Shown: piece by piece, positions 3,193 to 12,065 of the stretch
How the letters are laid out: each line of letters opens with the position of its first letter
Numbering within the stretch: the first letter of the stretch is position 1
DNA from: a virus
Strand: one strand, 5' to 3'
IMG/VR virus record: IMGVR_UViG_3300042301_000263
Coordinates: 1 to 23,030 of that record
Length of the DNA: 23,030 nt
The notes under the pieces: model-generated
Database searches by the model: none
What the model was told of the DNA's origin: nothing
What the model saw: the letters and a program-made list of their open reading frames with translations, nothing else
Translations under genes and position numbers: made by a program

Positions 3193-3595
3193 TCCTGAAC
3201 ACCTCTTAGAACTATTCCAAAGCTACAAGAAATGGGTAAAAGAAAACCCAAGATACAAATACACCCTAAACCAAAGGACTGGAGATATGGTAGCTGAACC
3301 TCTTGAATGTCCACTCACAATGGAGGGCTTTGAAGTCTACTGCTTCAATAAGTTTGACCTGACAATCGAACACTACATAAGAAATACTCAAGGAGCTTAC
3401 GATGAATTTTGCGGTATCTCTACACATATAAAGCGAGAAATCCGCCAAGACCAAATCAACGGCGGCTTAGTTGGTCAGTACAATGCGAACTTAACCGCAC
3501 GTTTAAACGGACTAACTGAGAAGACTGAGAACACAATCGTAACCGAGCAACCGCTATTCAACTTTAATGTTTCAGGTAACAACGGCAATTCATAA
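3158..3595 (+). CDS. terS: Terminase small subunit (DNA-packaging protein)
   Basis: The 145-residue protein has a basic N-terminus (MAKVGRPRK), a helical middle (about 10-75) and a C-terminal helical part with IKREIRQDQINGGLVGQYNA, which I associate with gp3-like DNA-packaging small terminases of Bacteroidota phages. In the family the small subunit recognises viral DNA, forms a ring and hands the DNA to the large subunit. The context is strong: it overlaps the large subunit by 29 bases. The last residues (NFNVSGNNGNS) are low complexity. Family recognition is by pattern plus position. Confidence 0.85.
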   Translation: MAKVGRPRKIDSPEHLLELFQSYKKWVKENPRYKYTLNQRTGDMVAEPLECPLTMEGFEVYCFNKFDLTIEHYIRNTQGAYDEFCGISTHIKREIRQDQINGGLVGQYNANLTARLNGLTEKTENTIVTEQPLFNFNVSGNNGNS

Positions 3596-4727
3596 AATCT
3601 ACGAACTCCAAAAGAGAATCAAGATTATTCAAGGAGGTACGTCAGCGGGAAAGACATTCGGAATCCTGCCCGTACTAATTGATAAGTGTGCTCGTGAAAA
3701 AGGCTTAGAGGTTTCAGTAGTTGCTGAGACAATTCCGCATTTAAGGAGAGGTGCTTTAAAAGACTTCCTGAAGATTATGCGTTGGACTGGTAGGTATGTT
3801 GAAGACCGATTCAATGCAACTTTACTCAGATACGAATTTGCTAACGGAAGTTCAATAGAGTTTTTCTCTGCTGATAACGCATCTAAACTTCGAGGTGCAA
3901 GACGTGACATCTTATACATCAACGAGTGTAACAACGTAACCTTTGACGCTTACCTTGAGCTTTCAATACGTACAAAGAAAGAGATATACTTAGACTTTAA
4001 CCCTGCAAATGAGTTTTGGGTTCATACCGAATTAAAAGACGAACCTGACGCAGATTTCATCATCCTTACTTACAAAGATAACGAAGCGTTAGACGAGAGC
4101 ATTGTACGTCAAATAGAAAAGAACCGTGACAAAGCAGCTACGAGTTCTTATTGGGCGAATTGGTGGCGAGTGTATGGTCTCGGAGAAGTAGGTATGCTTG
4201 AGGGTGTAATCTTTGACAATTGGAAAGAGATTGACAAGATACCTGACGATGCAAGATTGGTAGGCATAGGACTTGACTTTGGTTACACGAATGACCCAAC
4301 GGCAGCGATAGAAATATACAACTGGAATGGTCAACGCATAGTAAACGAAATTGTTTACCGAACGGGAATGCTGAACTCGGACATTGCTAAGGTGCTTCCG
4401 TCAAGCGTAACTATCTATGCTGATTCCTCAGAGCCTAAATCCATAGACGAGATTAGACGCTACGGAAAGACGATTAAAGGAGTAACGAAAGGCAAGGATT
4501 CAATCAACTACGGGATAGACGTTATGCAACGCCAGAACTACTTAGTAACCAAGCAGAGTACAAACCTAATCAAAGAGCTGAGGTCATATTGTTGGGATGT
4601 AGATAAACACGGAGTAAGACTAAACAAACCTGCAGGAGGAAACGACCACGCTATTGACGCACTTAGATACCACGAGATGGAAAGTCTCGGCTTAAATTCA
4701 AACTATGGACAATACGCAATCCGATGA
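3567..4727 (+). CDS. terL: Terminase large subunit (packaging ATPase and nuclease)
   Basis: This 386-residue protein drives viral DNA into the prohead and cuts the concatemer. Walker A GGTSAGKT is at residues 23-30, and Walker B with the catalytic glutamate, DILYINE, is at 114-120. The C-terminal RNase H-like nuclease shows its acidic residues at D237 (GLDFGY), D286 (YADSSEP) and D360/D364 (GGNDHAIDALRYH). The start at 3567 places Walker A only 22 residues from the N-terminus, so the protein is compact for the family (usually 400-550 residues) but has every expected motif. It overlaps the small subunit upstream and the small gene at 4705 downstream. Confidence 0.97.
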   Translation: MFQVTTAIHKIYELQKRIKIIQGGTSAGKTFGILPVLIDKCAREKGLEVSVVAETIPHLRRGALKDFLKIMRWTGRYVEDRFNATLLRYEFANGSSIEFFSADNASKLRGARRDILYINECNNVTFDAYLELSIRTKKEIYLDFNPANEFWVHTELKDEPDADFIILTYKDNEALDESIVRQIEKNRDKAATSSYWANWWRVYGLGEVGMLEGVIFDNWKEIDKIPDDARLVGIGLDFGYTNDPTAAIEIYNWNGQRIVNEIVYRTGMLNSDIAKVLPSSVTIYADSSEPKSIDEIRRYGKTIKGVTKGKDSINYGIDVMQRQNYLVTKQSTNLIKELRSYCWDVDKHGVRLNKPAGGNDHAIDALRYHEMESLGLNSNYGQYAIR

Positions 4728-4890
4728 GTTGCCTAAAATGAAAGCAGTAGTAGAGGAGTACATCTACAACGAGAAAGGCAAAAAGGTCAAGATAGTCTTT
4801 GACGACATCTACAAGATACGAATGCACTCACAGATGCTGGCAGCAGCATACGCCTATGTACTACAAAAACAAGAACAAAAAGTTAAATAG
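4705..4890 (+). CDS. Small hypothetical protein after terminase (61 aa)
   Basis: The 61-residue product is charged and probably helical, with a short beta-like segment in the middle (KKVKIVFDDIYKI) and an alanine-rich helix (MLAAAYAYVLQKQ). No membrane segment or metal motif is visible. It overlaps the terminase end by 23 bases in a different frame and lies immediately before the frameshift gene. Small genes in this position are common in phages, but I do not recognise this one. Its codons match those of the terminase, which supports a long-resident gene. Confidence 0.7.
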   Translation: MDNTQSDELPKMKAVVEEYIYNEKGKKVKIVFDDIYKIRMHSQMLAAAYAYVLQKQEQKVK

Positions 4891-4892
4891 AT

Positions 4893-5648
4893 ATGGAAAT
4901 CCAAGTAAAAGTACCTACCTCACTAAACGAAATCCCACTTAAGCACTATGTGGACTTCTTGAACGTGCAGAAAGGTTCAAACGATGAAGAGTTTATTGCT
5001 CAAAAGATGATTGAGATTTTCTGTGGCATCAGGTTATCGGATGTAGCTAACATCAAGCTGACGTCACTTAACGAAATGGTTGCTCACTTTACAAACCTAT
5101 TCAGCCAAAAGCCAGAGTTCACACAGAAGTTTAAAATCGGAGATGTTGAGTTTGGTTTTATTCCGAACTTAGAAGAGATTTCTTTCGGAGAGTATGTGGA
5201 CTTAGAGAACAGTCTACAAAGTTGGGAAACCTACAACAAGGCTATGGCAGTAATGTACAGACCTATCAAAAAACGAAAGGGAGACAAGTACGAAATACAC
5301 GACTACAAACCAAGTAAAGACCATCAGGAGTTGATGCAGTTCGCTCCGCTTGATGTATGCATAGCAGCATCGGTTTTTTTTTACAATTTAGGAAACGAGT
5401 TACTGACGGCTACCCTGAATTATTTGGAGAAGCAGATGAAGATGGACAAGAGCCTATCAATGACTTTAGCGAAACAACTCAATTTGCAAAACGATGGGGA
5501 TGGTATCAGTCAATATATGCACTCGCTAAAGGAGACGTTACAAGATTCGATGAAGTTACCACACTTCGACTTACTAAATGTCTCACCTATCTCACATTCG
5601 AGAAACAAAAAAACGAAATTGAACAAAGACAACTCCAAAGACAATTAA
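4893..5648 (+). CDS. Tail-assembly-chaperone-like protein, frame-0 product
   Basis: Read without a shift, this is a 251-residue protein. The first 160 residues (MEIQVKVPTSLNEIPLKHYV ... LDVCIAASVFF) look like an ordinary folded domain. A run of nine T residues (5374-5382) falls at codons 161-164. After it, frame 0 continues for about 87 codons with a basic, Asn/Lys-rich tail ending SRNKKTKLNKDNSKDN. The -1 frame is open over the same DNA and looks more protein-like (see the next entry). Frame 0 stops at 5648, five bases short of the next start. A common N-terminus with alternative C-termini is the pattern of phage tail-assembly chaperones, although these normally lie just before the tape measure, which here is 4.6 kb away. 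The assignment is tentative. Confidence 0.75.
   Translation: MEIQVKVPTSLNEIPLKHYVDFLNVQKGSNDEEFIAQKMIEIFCGIRLSDVANIKLTSLNEMVAHFTNLFSQKPEFTQKFKIGDVEFGFIPNLEEISFGEYVDLENSLQSWETYNKAMAVMYRPIKKRKGDKYEIHDYKPSKDHQELMQFAPLDVCIAASVFFYNLGNELLTATLNYLEKQMKMDKSLSMTLAKQLNLQNDGDGISQYMHSLKETLQDSMKLPHFDLLNVSPISHSRNKKTKLNKDNSKDN
5374..5382 (+). promoter_or_regulatory. Probable -1 slippery site (T9 run)
   Basis: Nine consecutive T residues are read in frame 0 as GTT TTT TTT TAC. Both TTT codons can re-pair after a one-base backward slip. The same run could also cause polymerase slippage. I see no clear stimulatory hairpin immediately downstream. Confidence 0.6.
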
Positions 5649-5656
5649 GACGATGA
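5381..5656 (+). CDS. -1 frame extension of the 4893 gene
   Basis: After a -1 slip the ribosome would add 91 residues from 5381, giving a fusion of about 254 residues. The extension starts LQFRKRVTDGYPELFGEADE, with an acidic linker, followed by a folded-looking segment (KRWGWYQSIYALAKGDVTRF, then LTYLTFEKQKNEIEQRQL). This is the kind of sequence I expect from a real phage protein, with GAA, GAT, GAC and CAA codons in place. It ends at TGA 5654-5656, which overlaps the next gene's ATG (5653) as ATGA, the junction used throughout this genome; the frame-0 stop has no such overlap. An in-frame ATG at 5357 could also start it as a separate 99-residue protein. A homopolymer sequencing error is the main alternative. 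Confidence 0.65.
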   Translation, partial: LQFRKRVTDGYPELFGEADEDGQEPINDFSETTQFAKRWGWYQSIYALAKGDVTRFDEVTTLRLTKCLTYLTFEKQKNEIEQRQLQRQLRR

Positions 5657-6108
5657 CAGGATTTTACACTATAACAGAAGCTCTACAAACACATTTCAAC
5701 AATGACGTGTTAGTAAACACCGTTACTGAGGGCGATATATTCGAGGTAGACTTAAACAAGCAGACTATCTTTCCGCTTGTACACGTAATGGTCAACAATG
5801 CGACCTTTGAAACTAACGTAGTACGCTTTAACATCAGCCTATTGGCTATGGATATCGTCAACATATCAAAAGACGAAACCACAAATATCTTCAGAGGTAA
5901 CGCAAACGAGCAAGACGTACTCAACACTCAGTTAGAAATCTTAAACCGTGCTTATGCTCAAATGCTTCACGGTAACTTATGGGATTCTAAAGTCGTAGTA
6001 GATGGCAATCCTAGTTGTGAACCGTTTACTGAACGCTTTGAAAACTACTTAGCAGGATGGACTATGACATTTGACGTTCTGATTCCTAACGAGGTTACTA
6101 TCTGCTAA
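5653..6108 (+). CDS. Probable tail terminator / neck protein
   Basis: The 151-residue product starts MTGFYTITEALQTHFNNDVL and continues with beta-rich segments (IFPLVHVMVNNATF, VVRFNISLLAMDIV) and a helix (QDVLNTQLEILNRAYAQML), ending LAGWTMTFDVLIPNEVTIC. One helix packed on a sheet, about 150 residues, encoded next to an HK97-gp10-like gene, matches tail-terminator or tail-completion proteins (lambda gpU type), which cap the tail tube and join it to the head. It overlaps the frameshift product upstream (ATGA) and the next gene downstream (TAATG). The fold is inferred from pattern and context. Confidence 0.68.
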   Translation: MTGFYTITEALQTHFNNDVLVNTVTEGDIFEVDLNKQTIFPLVHVMVNNATFETNVVRFNISLLAMDIVNISKDETTNIFRGNANEQDVLNTQLEILNRAYAQMLHGNLWDSKVVVDGNPSCEPFTERFENYLAGWTMTFDVLIPNEVTIC

Positions 6109-7662: not shown

Positions 7663-10079
7663 TGGATAGACAAGTACAACTATATGTCAGCACGACAAGC
7701 TACCAGAATATAACTACATCAGTAGTAAACACTTTCTTTACTAACGTAACTGCAAACGGAGGAACTTGTGAAAGTGGTCAATGTATGCTTGACTATCTTG
7801 AATCTCTCGGAGGTCTCTATGGCAATTTATCAACCGCAGAAAGACTTGAGCTATTTAATGACGAACAAATAAATGTAACAAGCACCGTTCAAAACGTACA
7901 AGACATCTCTAAGACGTTTACGGACTTTTCACAGTCGTTTACAATTCCTGCTAATGACCACAACAACGGAATCTTACAACACTTCTATCAGTCCGATGTC
8001 AATGCTTTGATTGATTACAACATCCGTTTAGATTCATTCATTGAGATTGACTTCACGTTCTTTAGACGAGGCAAGCTGCAGGTTGAAAAGGCGAACCTAA
8101 AAAACGGAAGACCTGAAAGCTACTCTGTAACATTCTACGGAGATGGGCGTACTTTGAAGGACTACTTTGGAGAGGACTTACTTTCTGATTTAGATTTAAC
8201 TGCAATTTCTCACAACTTCGTTTCATCTGAAGTAATTGCGAGAATCACGAATGCAACGAACTTATATGATGTCAAGTACCCTTTAATTACTTCAAATAGA
8301 ATTTGGCAGTATCAGTCAGTGCCTTTAGGAGCTCCAGTACCTAACTGGCTAACATCAACCTTAACTCAAAATGACATTCACTCTAACTCAGGTGCTATAA
8401 ACAAAAGTGAGTTGTTTCCTGCAGTAAGAGTGAGCAAGATATTTGAAGCTATAGAGACAAGGTACGGAATTACATTTGATAGCACTTTCCTAAATGATGA
8501 GAGATTCACTAAGTTGTTCTTATGGTATAAAGGAAAGAATACTTTGGTGCGTACTTCCTATGGATATGATTTAACTGCAGATACGGTCACACCAACTTTT
8601 GTGAATTACGATTTGACTTCAAGTTATGATTCGGCTACTAATCAGGTAACAATTCAAGAATTAAATGGTGTTCTTACACATAACTTAATCTACAATGTAA
8701 CTGCCACAACGAGTTCAGACGATTACTATATTGACGTGTATCAAAACGGATATTTATTCAACACTATAACTGGAAGTGGCACGGGTACTTATACGTTAAG
8801 CACCGTCAATCAGGTAGCAGGATTATACCAAACTTATACAGTCAAAATACGTACAACGGGAACTAACACAATAACATCTAATCTCGTTTATGAAGTAGAA
8901 TATATCACAACGGGTACTCTCAATGTTGATTATTTGACAATTACTTACGATGATTTGAGTATGTTGTTGATTCTCGATTTATCAGCTAACGCACCTCAAA
9001 TGAAGATTGCAGATTTCTTTGCAGGTATCTTAAAGGTGTTCAACTTAGTTTGTGTAGGCACAGAGAAAAACGTGTATCAAATTACGCCAATAGACGATTG
9101 GTACGGACAAGGAGCTATTGTGGACATCACAGAATTTACGGATGCTGAGAGCATTGAGGTTTCTCGTATGCCACTCTATAAAAAGATAACTTTCAAGTAT
9201 CAAGATTCTGAAAGCGTATTAAACAAATACTTCTCACAAACATTCAACAGAAGTTACGGAGATTCAACATATCAGTATAATTACGATGGCGGGGAGTTTA
9301 CGGTTGAGCTTCCTTTCGAGAATTTATTGCAAACTGAGTACAATAGTAGTGGAACGCAAATTCAGTTAGGTTATTCCTTAAATAGTGAATTAAGTCCATA
9401 CCTACCAAAACCCGTATTGCTCTATCAGTATACCAATCAAACAACTAACTTTAAATTCGCAAACGATGGAGGTGGTCACACTACAATCAATTCTTACACT
9501 CCGCTTGCTCAAGACTTACGCTACAACAACACGGACTTAACTCTAAACTTTGCAGCAGATACGAGTAGCCTTTTACTTGTGCCAATACAAAACACACTCT
9601 TTGCTCAGTACTACTTCTCATACCTTTACAACCTTTACAACCTAAAGCAAAGACTAATTAACGTCAAGACTATAATGCCAGTAGGGTTACTGACGAACCT
9701 AAGATTGAATGACCGTGTAATGATACGAGACAAGCGTTACATCATTAACGATATGAAATCAAACCTAACAAACGGAGAGGTTGACTTGTCTTTGTATCTT
9801 GACTTCAGACCTATGATTAACAAAATACCGTTCTATCAAACACCTGCATCAGGTGGCTCAGTTGCAACTGCCATAAACTTACCAAACGGAGGAGGTTCAG
9901 CAGTATTGACGCCATCAAGTTCAGACGTTACATTGAGTGCGTACACGTTAACGAATAGCCAAATAGTTGAAGTTACTACACCGCCTGCTACCGCTGGGGA
10001 TGTCTTTTCAGTTGTAGTAGCGTACACAAGCACAACGGGAATAAGAACAAGTGAAACAATAAACATCGTAGTACAATGA
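7662..10079 (+). CDS. Large tail-tip / baseplate-hub-like structural protein
   Basis: This is the largest product in the window (805 residues). After a short Ser/Thr-rich N-terminus come VQNVQDISKTFTDFSQSFTI and FFRRGKLQVEKANLKNGRPE, then DYFGEDLLSDLDL. I recall this series from Bacteroidota phage tail proteins. A beta-rich, Thr/Ser-rich segment at about 305-420 reads like an inserted Ig-like domain. The later part (about 430-720) again looks hub-like, with short loops and aromatic strands, and the C-terminus (about 740-805) is a small Ser/Thr/Gly-rich beta domain. It probably forms the tail tip through which DNA passes. Domain limits are approximate. Confidence 0.75.
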   Translation: MDRQVQLYVSTTSYQNITTSVVNTFFTNVTANGGTCESGQCMLDYLESLGGLYGNLSTAERLELFNDEQINVTSTVQNVQDISKTFTDFSQSFTIPANDHNNGILQHFYQSDVNALIDYNIRLDSFIEIDFTFFRRGKLQVEKANLKNGRPESYSVTFYGDGRTLKDYFGEDLLSDLDLTAISHNFVSSEVIARITNATNLYDVKYPLITSNRIWQYQSVPLGAPVPNWLTSTLTQNDIHSNSGAINKSELFPAVRVSKIFEAIETRYGITFDSTFLNDERFTKLFLWYKGKNTLVRTSYGYDLTADTVTPTFVNYDLTSSYDSATNQVTIQELNGVLTHNLIYNVTATTSSDDYYIDVYQNGYLFNTITGSGTGTYTLSTVNQVAGLYQTYTVKIRTTGTNTITSNLVYEVEYITTGTLNVDYLTITYDDLSMLLILDLSANAPQMKIADFFAGILKVFNLVCVGTEKNVYQITPIDDWYGQGAIVDITEFTDAESIEVSRMPLYKKITFKYQDSESVLNKYFSQTFNRSYGDSTYQYNYDGGEFTVELPFENLLQTEYNSSGTQIQLGYSLNSELSPYLPKPVLLYQYTNQTTNFKFANDGGGHTTINSYTPLAQDLRYNNTDLTLNFAADTSSLLLVPIQNTLFAQYYFSYLYNLYNLKQRLINVKTIMPVGLLTNLRLNDRVMIRDKRYIINDMKSNLTNGEVDLSLYLDFRPMINKIPFYQTPASGGSVATAINLPNGGGSAVLTPSSSDVTLSAYTLTNSQIVEVTTPPATAGDVFSVVVAYTSTTGIRTSETINIVVQ

Positions 10080-10237
10080 TAAAACAAATAGTAGCTATGC
10101 TTCAGCTTGATGATTTCTACGGAGAATCCAAGTTGATTGACATCGCAAAAGGAAAATACGAGTACACAACATCTATGAAAAAAATGTGGAAACAAGGAAA
10201 ACGAGACTTAACAAATAAACGAAATGGCAGAGGTTAA
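10076..10237 (+). CDS. Small basic protein before the tape measure (53 aa)
   Basis: The frame starts at ATG 10076, overlapping the previous stop (ATGA), and ends at TAA 10235-10237, 14 bases inside the tape-measure gene. The 53-residue product begins MIKQIVAMLQLDDFYGESKL and is very basic at the end (MKKMWKQGKRDLTNKRNGRG). It fills what would otherwise be a 144-base gap in a genome with almost no gaps, and both junctions follow the local overlap style. The position directly before the tape measure is where tail-assembly chaperones normally lie, but this protein is too small for a classical one. The function is unknown. Confidence 0.6.
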   Translation: MIKQIVAMLQLDDFYGESKLIDIAKGKYEYTTSMKKMWKQGKRDLTNKRNGRG

Positions 10238-12065
10238 AACAATCAAGATAGACGTAGACACAAAAGGTGCAGTAGATGCGATGGAGAACCTCTCCAAAGC
10301 GACTCACGACGTATCAGCAAGTTTCGAGGAAGTGTATGGCGATTTACAACCGCTTACAACTCGTATGGGCGAAGCGGAAGACCGTTTGTATGAATTAGCT
10401 AACGCTGGTCAAACTGCAACTCAAGAATATCAAGACCTCTTACAAACCGTAGGTCAGTATCGCAAAGTTCAGATTCAGACTGATATGGCAGTTGATGCTG
10501 CTGCTACCACGATGAGCCAAAAACTCGGAGGTGCATTAGGTGGTGCTACTGCAGGTTTCCAACTCGTTCAGGGTGCTATGGGTGCTTTCGGTACGGAATC
10601 CGCTCAAGTAGAGGAAGCCTTACTTAAGGTGCAGTCCGCTATGGCTATTGCTGAGGGTGTTCAAGGATTCAAAGAAGCTATCCCATCAATCAAGGCTTTC
10701 GGTATGGCTTTGAAAGGTGCTATCGGTGCATCAGGTATTGGACTACTTGTAATTGCTTTAGGAACTGTAGCAGCGTACTGGGATGATATTAAGGGTGCAG
10801 TTAGTGGAGTATCAGATGAACAAGAAAAACTAAACGCTAAGGCACAAGCTAACGTAAACATTCAGCAAAAGAAATTTGATTCAATCTCTGGTCAAGAAAA
10901 CATCTTAAGACTTCAAGGTAAATCAGAAAAGGACATCACTGAACTCAAGCTCAAGCAGATTCAAATGGTCATTAAGGCTACTGAAGCTCAGTTAGTCCAA
11001 CAAGAAAACACAAAGAAAGCTGAGGTCGCTGCTACAAAACGAAACCAAGATTACTTAAAGATAGTACTTAGAGTAGGTTTGGAAATGGCTGCTTTAGTAC
11101 TTAGATACTTAGCTGCTCCTATTGACTTAGCTATTATGGCTGCAAACAAAGTTTCTGAGGTATTAGGATTCGGTAAGATTACTGCTTTTAATATAAATTC
11201 AGAGATTACTAAGTTGACTTCAGGTGCTGCTCAATCAATGGCGGAGTATTTCTTTGACCCTAAAGCTACCGCAACAGAAGCAGACAAAACTATAAACGAA
11301 ACAAAAGCCAAACTCGGAGAACTTAAAAACCAAGCAGCAGGATTCCAACTCTCGTTAAATGAGATGAACAAACCTGCGGAAACGGTAGTTAAGGATAGCG
11401 GAAAGAAAGTTCAAGAACAAGCTGAAGAAGAAGTTAGGTTGTTAGCAGATTTTGAAGCTCAAAAAATAGAAACACGAAAAGCTACCTTAGATAAAACTTT
11501 ACAATTCCAAGAACTTGAAAACAAAGGCTTAAGAGATGGTCTTGCTTTAAAATTACAGATAGCTCAATCAGAAAGAGAATTAAATAAGCAGAAAATAGCT
11601 GATATGAATGAAGCCTTACAAGCTACTTCAGATACATTAGGTCAGTTAGCAAGTTTATTTGGAGAACAAACCGCAGCAGGGAAAGCAGCAGCTATTGCAC
11701 AAGCAACTATAGATACTTATTTATCTGCACAAAAAGCCTATGCTTCAACTATTGGCGTGCCTATTGTAGGACCAGTATTAGCTCCAATAAATGCAGGTAT
11801 TGCAATCGCAGCAGGTATCAAAAACATCAAAGCTATTGCATCTGTAAAAACACCTAATGGAGTTGACCCTCCAGTAAATCTACCAAACACATCTACGGGT
11901 GGCGGTATGCAAATGCAAGCTCCATCATTCAACGTAGTAGGCAACTCAGGCATCAATCAGTTAGCACAACTTCAGCAAACGCCAGTACAAGCGTATGTAG
12001 TTAGCGGAAATGTAACGACTGCTCAGAGCTTAGACCGTAACCGCATAGAAAATGCAACATTGTAA
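10224..12065 (+). CDS. Tail tape-measure protein
   Basis: The 613-residue protein is helical and Ala/Gln/Glu-rich, typical of the ruler that sets siphovirus tail length and leaves with the DNA. The N-terminal part (about 15-100) is coiled-coil-like. Hydrophobic segments are at about 160-185 (ASGIGLLVIALGTVAAYW), 288-306 (MAALVLRYLAAPIDLAIMA) and 508-535 (GVPIVGPVLAPINAGIAIAA), consistent with membrane passage during ejection. Between them are long charged helices (200-285, 335-460). At the usual ratio of about 0.15 nm per residue, the tail would be near 90 nm. The head module follows directly, which is an unusual order. Confidence 0.9.
   Translation: MAEVKTIKIDVDTKGAVDAMENLSKATHDVSASFEEVYGDLQPLTTRMGEAEDRLYELANAGQTATQEYQDLLQTVGQYRKVQIQTDMAVDAAATTMSQKLGGALGGATAGFQLVQGAMGAFGTESAQVEEALLKVQSAMAIAEGVQGFKEAIPSIKAFGMALKGAIGASGIGLLVIALGTVAAYWDDIKGAVSGVSDEQEKLNAKAQANVNIQQKKFDSISGQENILRLQGKSEKDITELKLKQIQMVIKATEAQLVQQENTKKAEVAATKRNQDYLKIVLRVGLEMAALVLRYLAAPIDLAIMAANKVSEVLGFGKITAFNINSEITKLTSGAAQSMAEYFFDPKATATEADKTINETKAKLGELKNQAAGFQLSLNEMNKPAETVVKDSGKKVQEQAEEEVRLLADFEAQKIETRKATLDKTLQFQELENKGLRDGLALKLQIAQSERELNKQKIADMNEALQATSDTLGQLASLFGEQTAAGKAAAIAQATIDTYLSAQKAYASTIGVPIVGPVLAPINAGIAIAAGIKNIKAIASVKTPNGVDPPVNLPNTSTGGGMQMQAPSFNVVGNSGINQLAQLQQTPVQAYVVSGNVTTAQSLDRNRIENATL

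Follow-up and report, generated by a model that had tools for sequence, protein, structure and literature searches.

A run of nine T residues (T9) at positions 5374-5382 of a viral genome raises the question of whether one gene is read to two different ends and, if so, by what means. The window, that is, the whole stretch of 23,030 nucleotides analysed here (positions 1 to 23,030 of IMG/VR record IMGVR_UViG_3300042301_000263), carries on its plus strand a frame-0 ORF of 251 aa (4893-5648) in which the run is read as GTT TTT TTT TAC. The N-terminal domain, shared by both predicted products, spans 4893-5380 (162 aa) and belongs to phrog_32199. Beyond it, frame 0 continues for 88 codons (5382-5648, with stop codon TAA at 5646-5648) and would give a G-like product of 251 aa. 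The -1 frame (5381-5656) is open for 91 codons (5381-5653) up to TGA 5654-5656 and would give a GT-like product of 254 aa. The latter stop overlaps the ATG at 5653 as ATGA (junction CGATGACAGG). This ATG starts the downstream gene (5653-6108, plus strand, 151 aa; phrog_30964, function unknown), and the overlap may couple the translation of the two. The run, its reading, the two long alternative C-termini and the overlap were all confirmed as described in the initial annotation. The ATGA junction, which it had found throughout the genome, is common but not universal, as four-base overlaps occur at some gene junctions and one-base overlaps at others. Predicted peptides of the frame-0 tail in this phage include LPHFDLLNVSPISHSR and QLNLQNDGDGISQYMHSLK, and those of the -1 tail include WGWYQSIYALAK and FDEVTTLR.

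The longest other A/T run in the window has at most seven residues. When the frame-0 protein was held fixed and codons were drawn according to the usage of this genome, the -1 frame was open in 0 of 20,000 simulations; with the -1 protein held fixed in the same way, frame 0 was open in 0.04 %. The double open frame therefore exceeds chance. The stop that is conserved in the +1 frame, three codons in, was considered as the mark of a third programmed product and rejected as uninformative, because it is dictated by a Leu in frame 0 together with an Arg in the -1 frame.

When IMG/VR was scanned, 411 stretches were found to encode a relative of the frame-0 protein, and the best 80 (64-98 % identity) were analysed. 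T9 is present in all 80, in one and the same register. On contigs of sufficient length, the -1 frame in these 80 is open for 90-91 codons and ends at ATGA, and both frames are open except in one contig (L036). In that contig, frame 0 has a stop at codon 110, upstream of the slip site, and the -1 domain is intact; a sequence error or a defective copy is likely. Scanning again from Nonlabens phage P12024L (27 % identity) added 63 loci down to 25 % identity, and a scan that started from a marine clade at greater distance added 80. Eight contigs, from MAGs of bacteria that are mostly Bacteroidota, came from a profile of the shared domain. Further genomes of the same class were then found with a profile of the -1 domain, with the gene in 28 of 101 genomes of one Bacteroidota family (that of G362); as this profile was built from the -1 domain alone, the slip site did not steer the search.

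In total, the scoring covered 260 loci in which a -1 domain could be recognised (181 distinct domains), from viral contigs and from Bacteroidota MAGs and genomes at about 25-98 % identity; six loci in which the contig or stretch ends too early were left out. The run is T9 in 256 of the 260 and T10 in four (L091, L147, L155 and L273), and it is shorter in none. Only eight other T9 runs occur in the 1.3 Mb of these loci. The alignment of homologues proposed in the initial annotation thus found the T run and the -1 frame conserved together, with no relative keeping frame 0 alone.

Two isolates carry the run too. Nonlabens phage P12024L has T9 and the -1 domain, its GenBank record giving the two halves as hypothetical proteins P12024L_40 and P12024L_41, and Nonlabens phage P12024S (both genus Inhavirus) has T9 as well. 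PHROGs lists two separate families of unknown function, phrog_32199 and phrog_38404, which correspond to the N-domain and the -1 domain of this one gene, the link between the frames being unannotated. All 20 diverse members tested match phrog_32199. The -1 product will be missed or split by gene callers.

At 6934-7626 of L276 (G1120), the T9 gene sits in a chromosomal region, with TonB plug, fasciclin, PepSY and IS21-type proteins nearby; its five tested neighbours match no PHROG, and the region is possibly a degraded or domesticated prophage. In Flavobacterium phage 6H (L234), the minus strand at 10044-10927 encodes a protein that is probably related in structure to the N-domain; an unannotated ORF of 105 aa comes after it in a different frame, and there is no T9. 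This may be a frame change of another type, several genes ahead of the one for the tape measure protein.

That a sequencing or assembly error hides a tenth T and a single continuous gene, the outcome which the initial annotation had set against its own reading, has a negligible chance, for although homopolymers are error-prone and L273 does have T10 with a continuous ORF, exactly nine are present in both isolates and in 256 loci that come from many independent samples, which refutes such an error for the family and rules it out as the explanation in the window, and selection acts on both frames downstream of the run (see below). Replication slippage, with the DNA itself switching between T9 and T10 in the population, is very improbable. 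Four T10 copies exist, and the two copies in one genome (G1203) differ, L257 having T9 and L273 T10. Such a switch, however, predicts mixed lengths, and 98.5 % of the loci have exactly nine; in three of the four T10 copies the extra T is compensated by the codon register, so that the frame is unchanged.

Synonymous and non-synonymous changes were then compared in each frame, as had been suggested at the outset. For the window's clade, 37 disjoint pairs were used, and the neutral rate was taken from frame-0-silent changes in the upstream frame-0 codons, which show the usual substitution pattern. Within the overlap, changes that are silent in the -1 frame and alter frame 0 occur at 0.31 of neutral (95 % interval 0.25-0.37, kappa 2.5-8), or 0.38 when only the more diverged pairs are taken. 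Changes that are silent in frame 0 and alter the -1 frame occur at 0.11 of neutral (0.08-0.15). Both predicted C-termini are thus under purifying selection in this clade, and the initial remark that the -1 product looks more protein-like is wrong in so far as it hints that only this end is.

The region past the frame-0 stop serves as a control within the same gene in the Bacteroidales-type prophages (a label guessed from their proteins). Here, in nine pairs, changes silent in the -1 frame and altering frame 0 are at 0.31 in the overlap versus 0.91 beyond the stop. In the marine L152 clade, the constraint on frame 0 is weak (0.51 in the overlap versus 0.72 beyond, with overlapping intervals). 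Across clades the frame-0 tail varies from 16 to 88 codons and the -1 domain only from 80 to 97 residues, so the -1 domain is the common part and the frame-0 tail depends on the clade; we infer that the tail was overprinted on the -1 domain.

The length range of the frame-0 tail and the weak constraint in the L152 clade would also suit a real -1 product with a frame-0 tail that is a mere by-product ignored by selection. This is unlikely in view of the 0.31 of neutral in the window's clade, the step from 0.31 to 0.91 at the frame-0 stop in the Bacteroidales-type prophages, and a frame 0 that is open against the simulated odds. Comparison shows, at the level of sequence, two predicted proteins from one start, both kept by natural selection. 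With the run kept in 256 of 260 loci as well, the programmed change of frame proposed for T9 stands.

The net change of frame is -1, as first described; it is probably not the ribosomal event that the word frameshift implies, and the evidence leans to transcriptional slippage. The change is probably made mainly during transcription, judging from the pattern of run lengths and registers. RNA polymerase would reiterate on the nine-T run, so that a fraction of the mRNAs would have ten U's and, translated normally, would give the -1 product. Transcripts with eight U's would stop within a few codons.

The run begins at codon position 2 in the window and most relatives, at position 3 (xxT TTT TTT TTR) in L239, L240, L244 and L245-L274 except L273, and at position 1 (ATG TTT TTT TTT) in L150 and L227. 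On a tree of 56 representatives below 80 % identity, the register changes at least five times and the length stays at 9-10 (the T10 form L091 was counted with position 1; branches are long and a few placements unsure). A run of at least nine is therefore kept whatever the codon register, as in a programmed transcriptional slippage gene. If the length may not drop below nine, intermediates such as the T10 forms L147 and L155 are to be expected, and no T8 intermediate between registers was found among the 260 loci. A need for the slippery heptamer only would predict T8 forms, with a small residue before and Tyr or Trp after; their absence favours polymerase slippage. Where the run starts at position 3, the two Phe codons are followed by TTA or TTG in 29 of 29 cases, and TTR makes up 34 % of the upstream Leu codons.

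According to Baranov et al. 2005 (PMC1088944), many bacterial genomes show selection against slippage once an A or T run reaches nine residues; the RNA-DNA hybrid is 9-10 bp long (PMC5009743). Known slippage genes with 9A or 9T (Thermus dnaX, IS elements, Shigella spa13 and mxiE; PMC1088944, PMC5009743) likewise have a homopolymer run, which is nine long in Thermus dnaX and the IS cases as it is here, and they reach the second frame through mRNA heterogeneity with no need for a complex RNA structure. Unlike those host or IS genes, the present one is a putative phage assembly gene kept across the phages of a phylum.

The same two products would arise if two tRNA-Phe slipped together at U_UUU_UUU on the ribosome, as in lambda G/GT. 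Such a -1 frameshift remains a serious though less favoured candidate. It is the established mechanism for phage tail chaperones (PMC5009743), and shifting of 6-7 % was measured in a bacterial gene cluster of the tail-chaperone kind (PMC3711429). T_TTT_TTT, a good ribosomal -1 heptamer, is present in frame in every register and at all loci. Hydrophobic residues flank the run in both frames (Val, Leu or Ile before; Tyr, Trp or Leu after; Phe in the -1 frame), and such neighbours alone tend to keep T's, which is the weak point of the slippage argument. Ribosomal slipping, however, leaves unexplained the absence of T8 and a length of 9-10 despite the register changes, and no other heptamer type (e.g. 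A_AAA_AAG) occurs in any relative. Nor was a stable or covarying structure found to either side of the run among pseudoknot-free folds: from -120 to +210 around it in 29 representatives, mean z-scores were near zero, and RNAalifold gave -0.8 kcal/mol and showed no base pair with compensatory changes.

In the AlphaFold models, the frame-0 product is predicted to have an alpha/beta N-domain (pLDDT mostly 77-94 over residues 11-160) and a long helix running through the slip point (pLDDT 78). The -1 domain is modelled as all-helical (pLDDT 80), with conserved FRxR...WGWY motifs. Eight viral models match both domains, some weakly: A0A516L5A8 (260 aa), A0A6J5N0W0 (267 aa), A0A6J7WDG4, A0A6J5SVK3, A0A6J5N3F3, A0A6J7WJY4, A0A6J5MY57 and A0A6J7XA66. 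Since each is a single protein matching both models, they are probable natural fusions, suggesting that both domains are encoded in one frame in other phages. In L273, the T10 run gives a continuous ORF of 253 aa for both domains, and the other copy L257 in the same genome has T9 and split frames; L273 is either a natural DNA-level fusion or an assembly slip.

Searches for known families gave little. No Pfam family was found at cut-off among 31 and 28 members (scattered weak matches were taken as chance), and no solved structure in the PDB matched by sequence search or by fold (Foldseek). Phrog_166, 'tail protein', was matched by only 3 of 20 members (best E-value 0.0012). Foldseek matches to annotated chaperones were weak (ctCpR1, E-value 0.23, probability 0.82; RcRhea, E-value 1.9).

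A G/GT-like tail assembly chaperone pair is nevertheless the role that we consider likely, by analogy. The analogy drawn in the initial annotation is judged right on architecture and context, the structural matches being weak. As in genes of the G/GT type, relatives conserve a pair of overlapping ORFs that a programmed frame change links, and the gene lies in the tail block. Homology gives no support yet, as no sequence match to a curated chaperone family was found in Pfam or PHROGs. The N-domain would be followed by the frame-0 tail or, after the net -1 shift, by the helical -1 domain. Like lambda gpG/gpGT, the pair would consist of a form without the T-like domain and a rarer form with it, and would help to load the tail tube protein onto the tape measure.

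The gene shares with lambda gpG/gpGT the single start, the common N-domain, the second domain in the -1 frame and a place in the tail gene region of a long-tailed phage. It differs in having no detectable sequence kinship, a T9 slip site, probable polymerase slippage, and a frame-0 stop up to 88 codons past the slip site, which gives two full overlapping C-termini. In the window's clade the products are of nearly equal length (251 versus 254 aa), so only the tail that each carries could set them apart. It also differs in position, adjoining the terL region 4.6 kb before the tape measure gene.

The gene for the terminase large subunit (3567-4727, plus strand; Pfam Terminase_3 and Terminase_3C, phrog_2) is indeed upstream, as first noted, but a 61-aa ORF (4705-4890) intervenes. 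The order is small terminase, terL, 61-aa ORF, T9 gene, proteins of 151, 172, 347 and 805 aa, 53-aa ORF, tape measure protein, protease, a phrog_11320 member (by position, presumably the capsid protein) and portal. The tape measure gene lies at 10224-12065 on the plus strand (phrog_24676, E-value 1.7e-13; phrog_3336). Tail chaperone genes usually lie just before the tape measure gene; here five ORFs stand between the two. The T9 gene opens the tail block, and the gene order is repeated in L275 between a terL-sized ORF and the tape measure gene. Elsewhere in the window are an N6/N4-type DNA methyltransferase gene (41-790) and, ahead of the terminase genes, an ORF (1774-2301) for a small helix-turn-helix protein of the YlxM/p13 type (Pfam UPF0122), which may regulate phage transcription. 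In P12024L, a sigma-70 region 2 protein is encoded ahead of terL.

Taken as a whole, the explanation by two products, a chaperone pair and a mainly transcriptional slip seems to us somewhat better than an even bet. Programmed frame changes in tail chaperones and slippage on nine T's are each already known. In the literature searched, which covered few subscription journals, no paper links phage tail assembly to transcriptional slippage and none describes a frameshift in Inhavirus. Nor were the combination, the range of phages or the long dual-coded ends found there, which is not proof that they are unreported. We give roughly even chances to the claim that an assembly gene of many Bacteroidota tailed phages yields two functional proteins through polymerase slippage on a fixed T9, with 70-88 codons dual-coded in at least two clades.

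The locus offers a long stretch of DNA in which two protein ends are selected simultaneously. Two orphan protein families become parts of a single gene, and the programmed frame changes in Bacteroidota phages gain a large family that had no annotation. The 260 loci in three registers form a natural series that separates the need for a run of nine from the need for a heptamer. If the claim is true, a transcriptional slip would serve the phages of one phylum in place of the ribosomal frameshift in the tail chaperone gene of other tailed phages.
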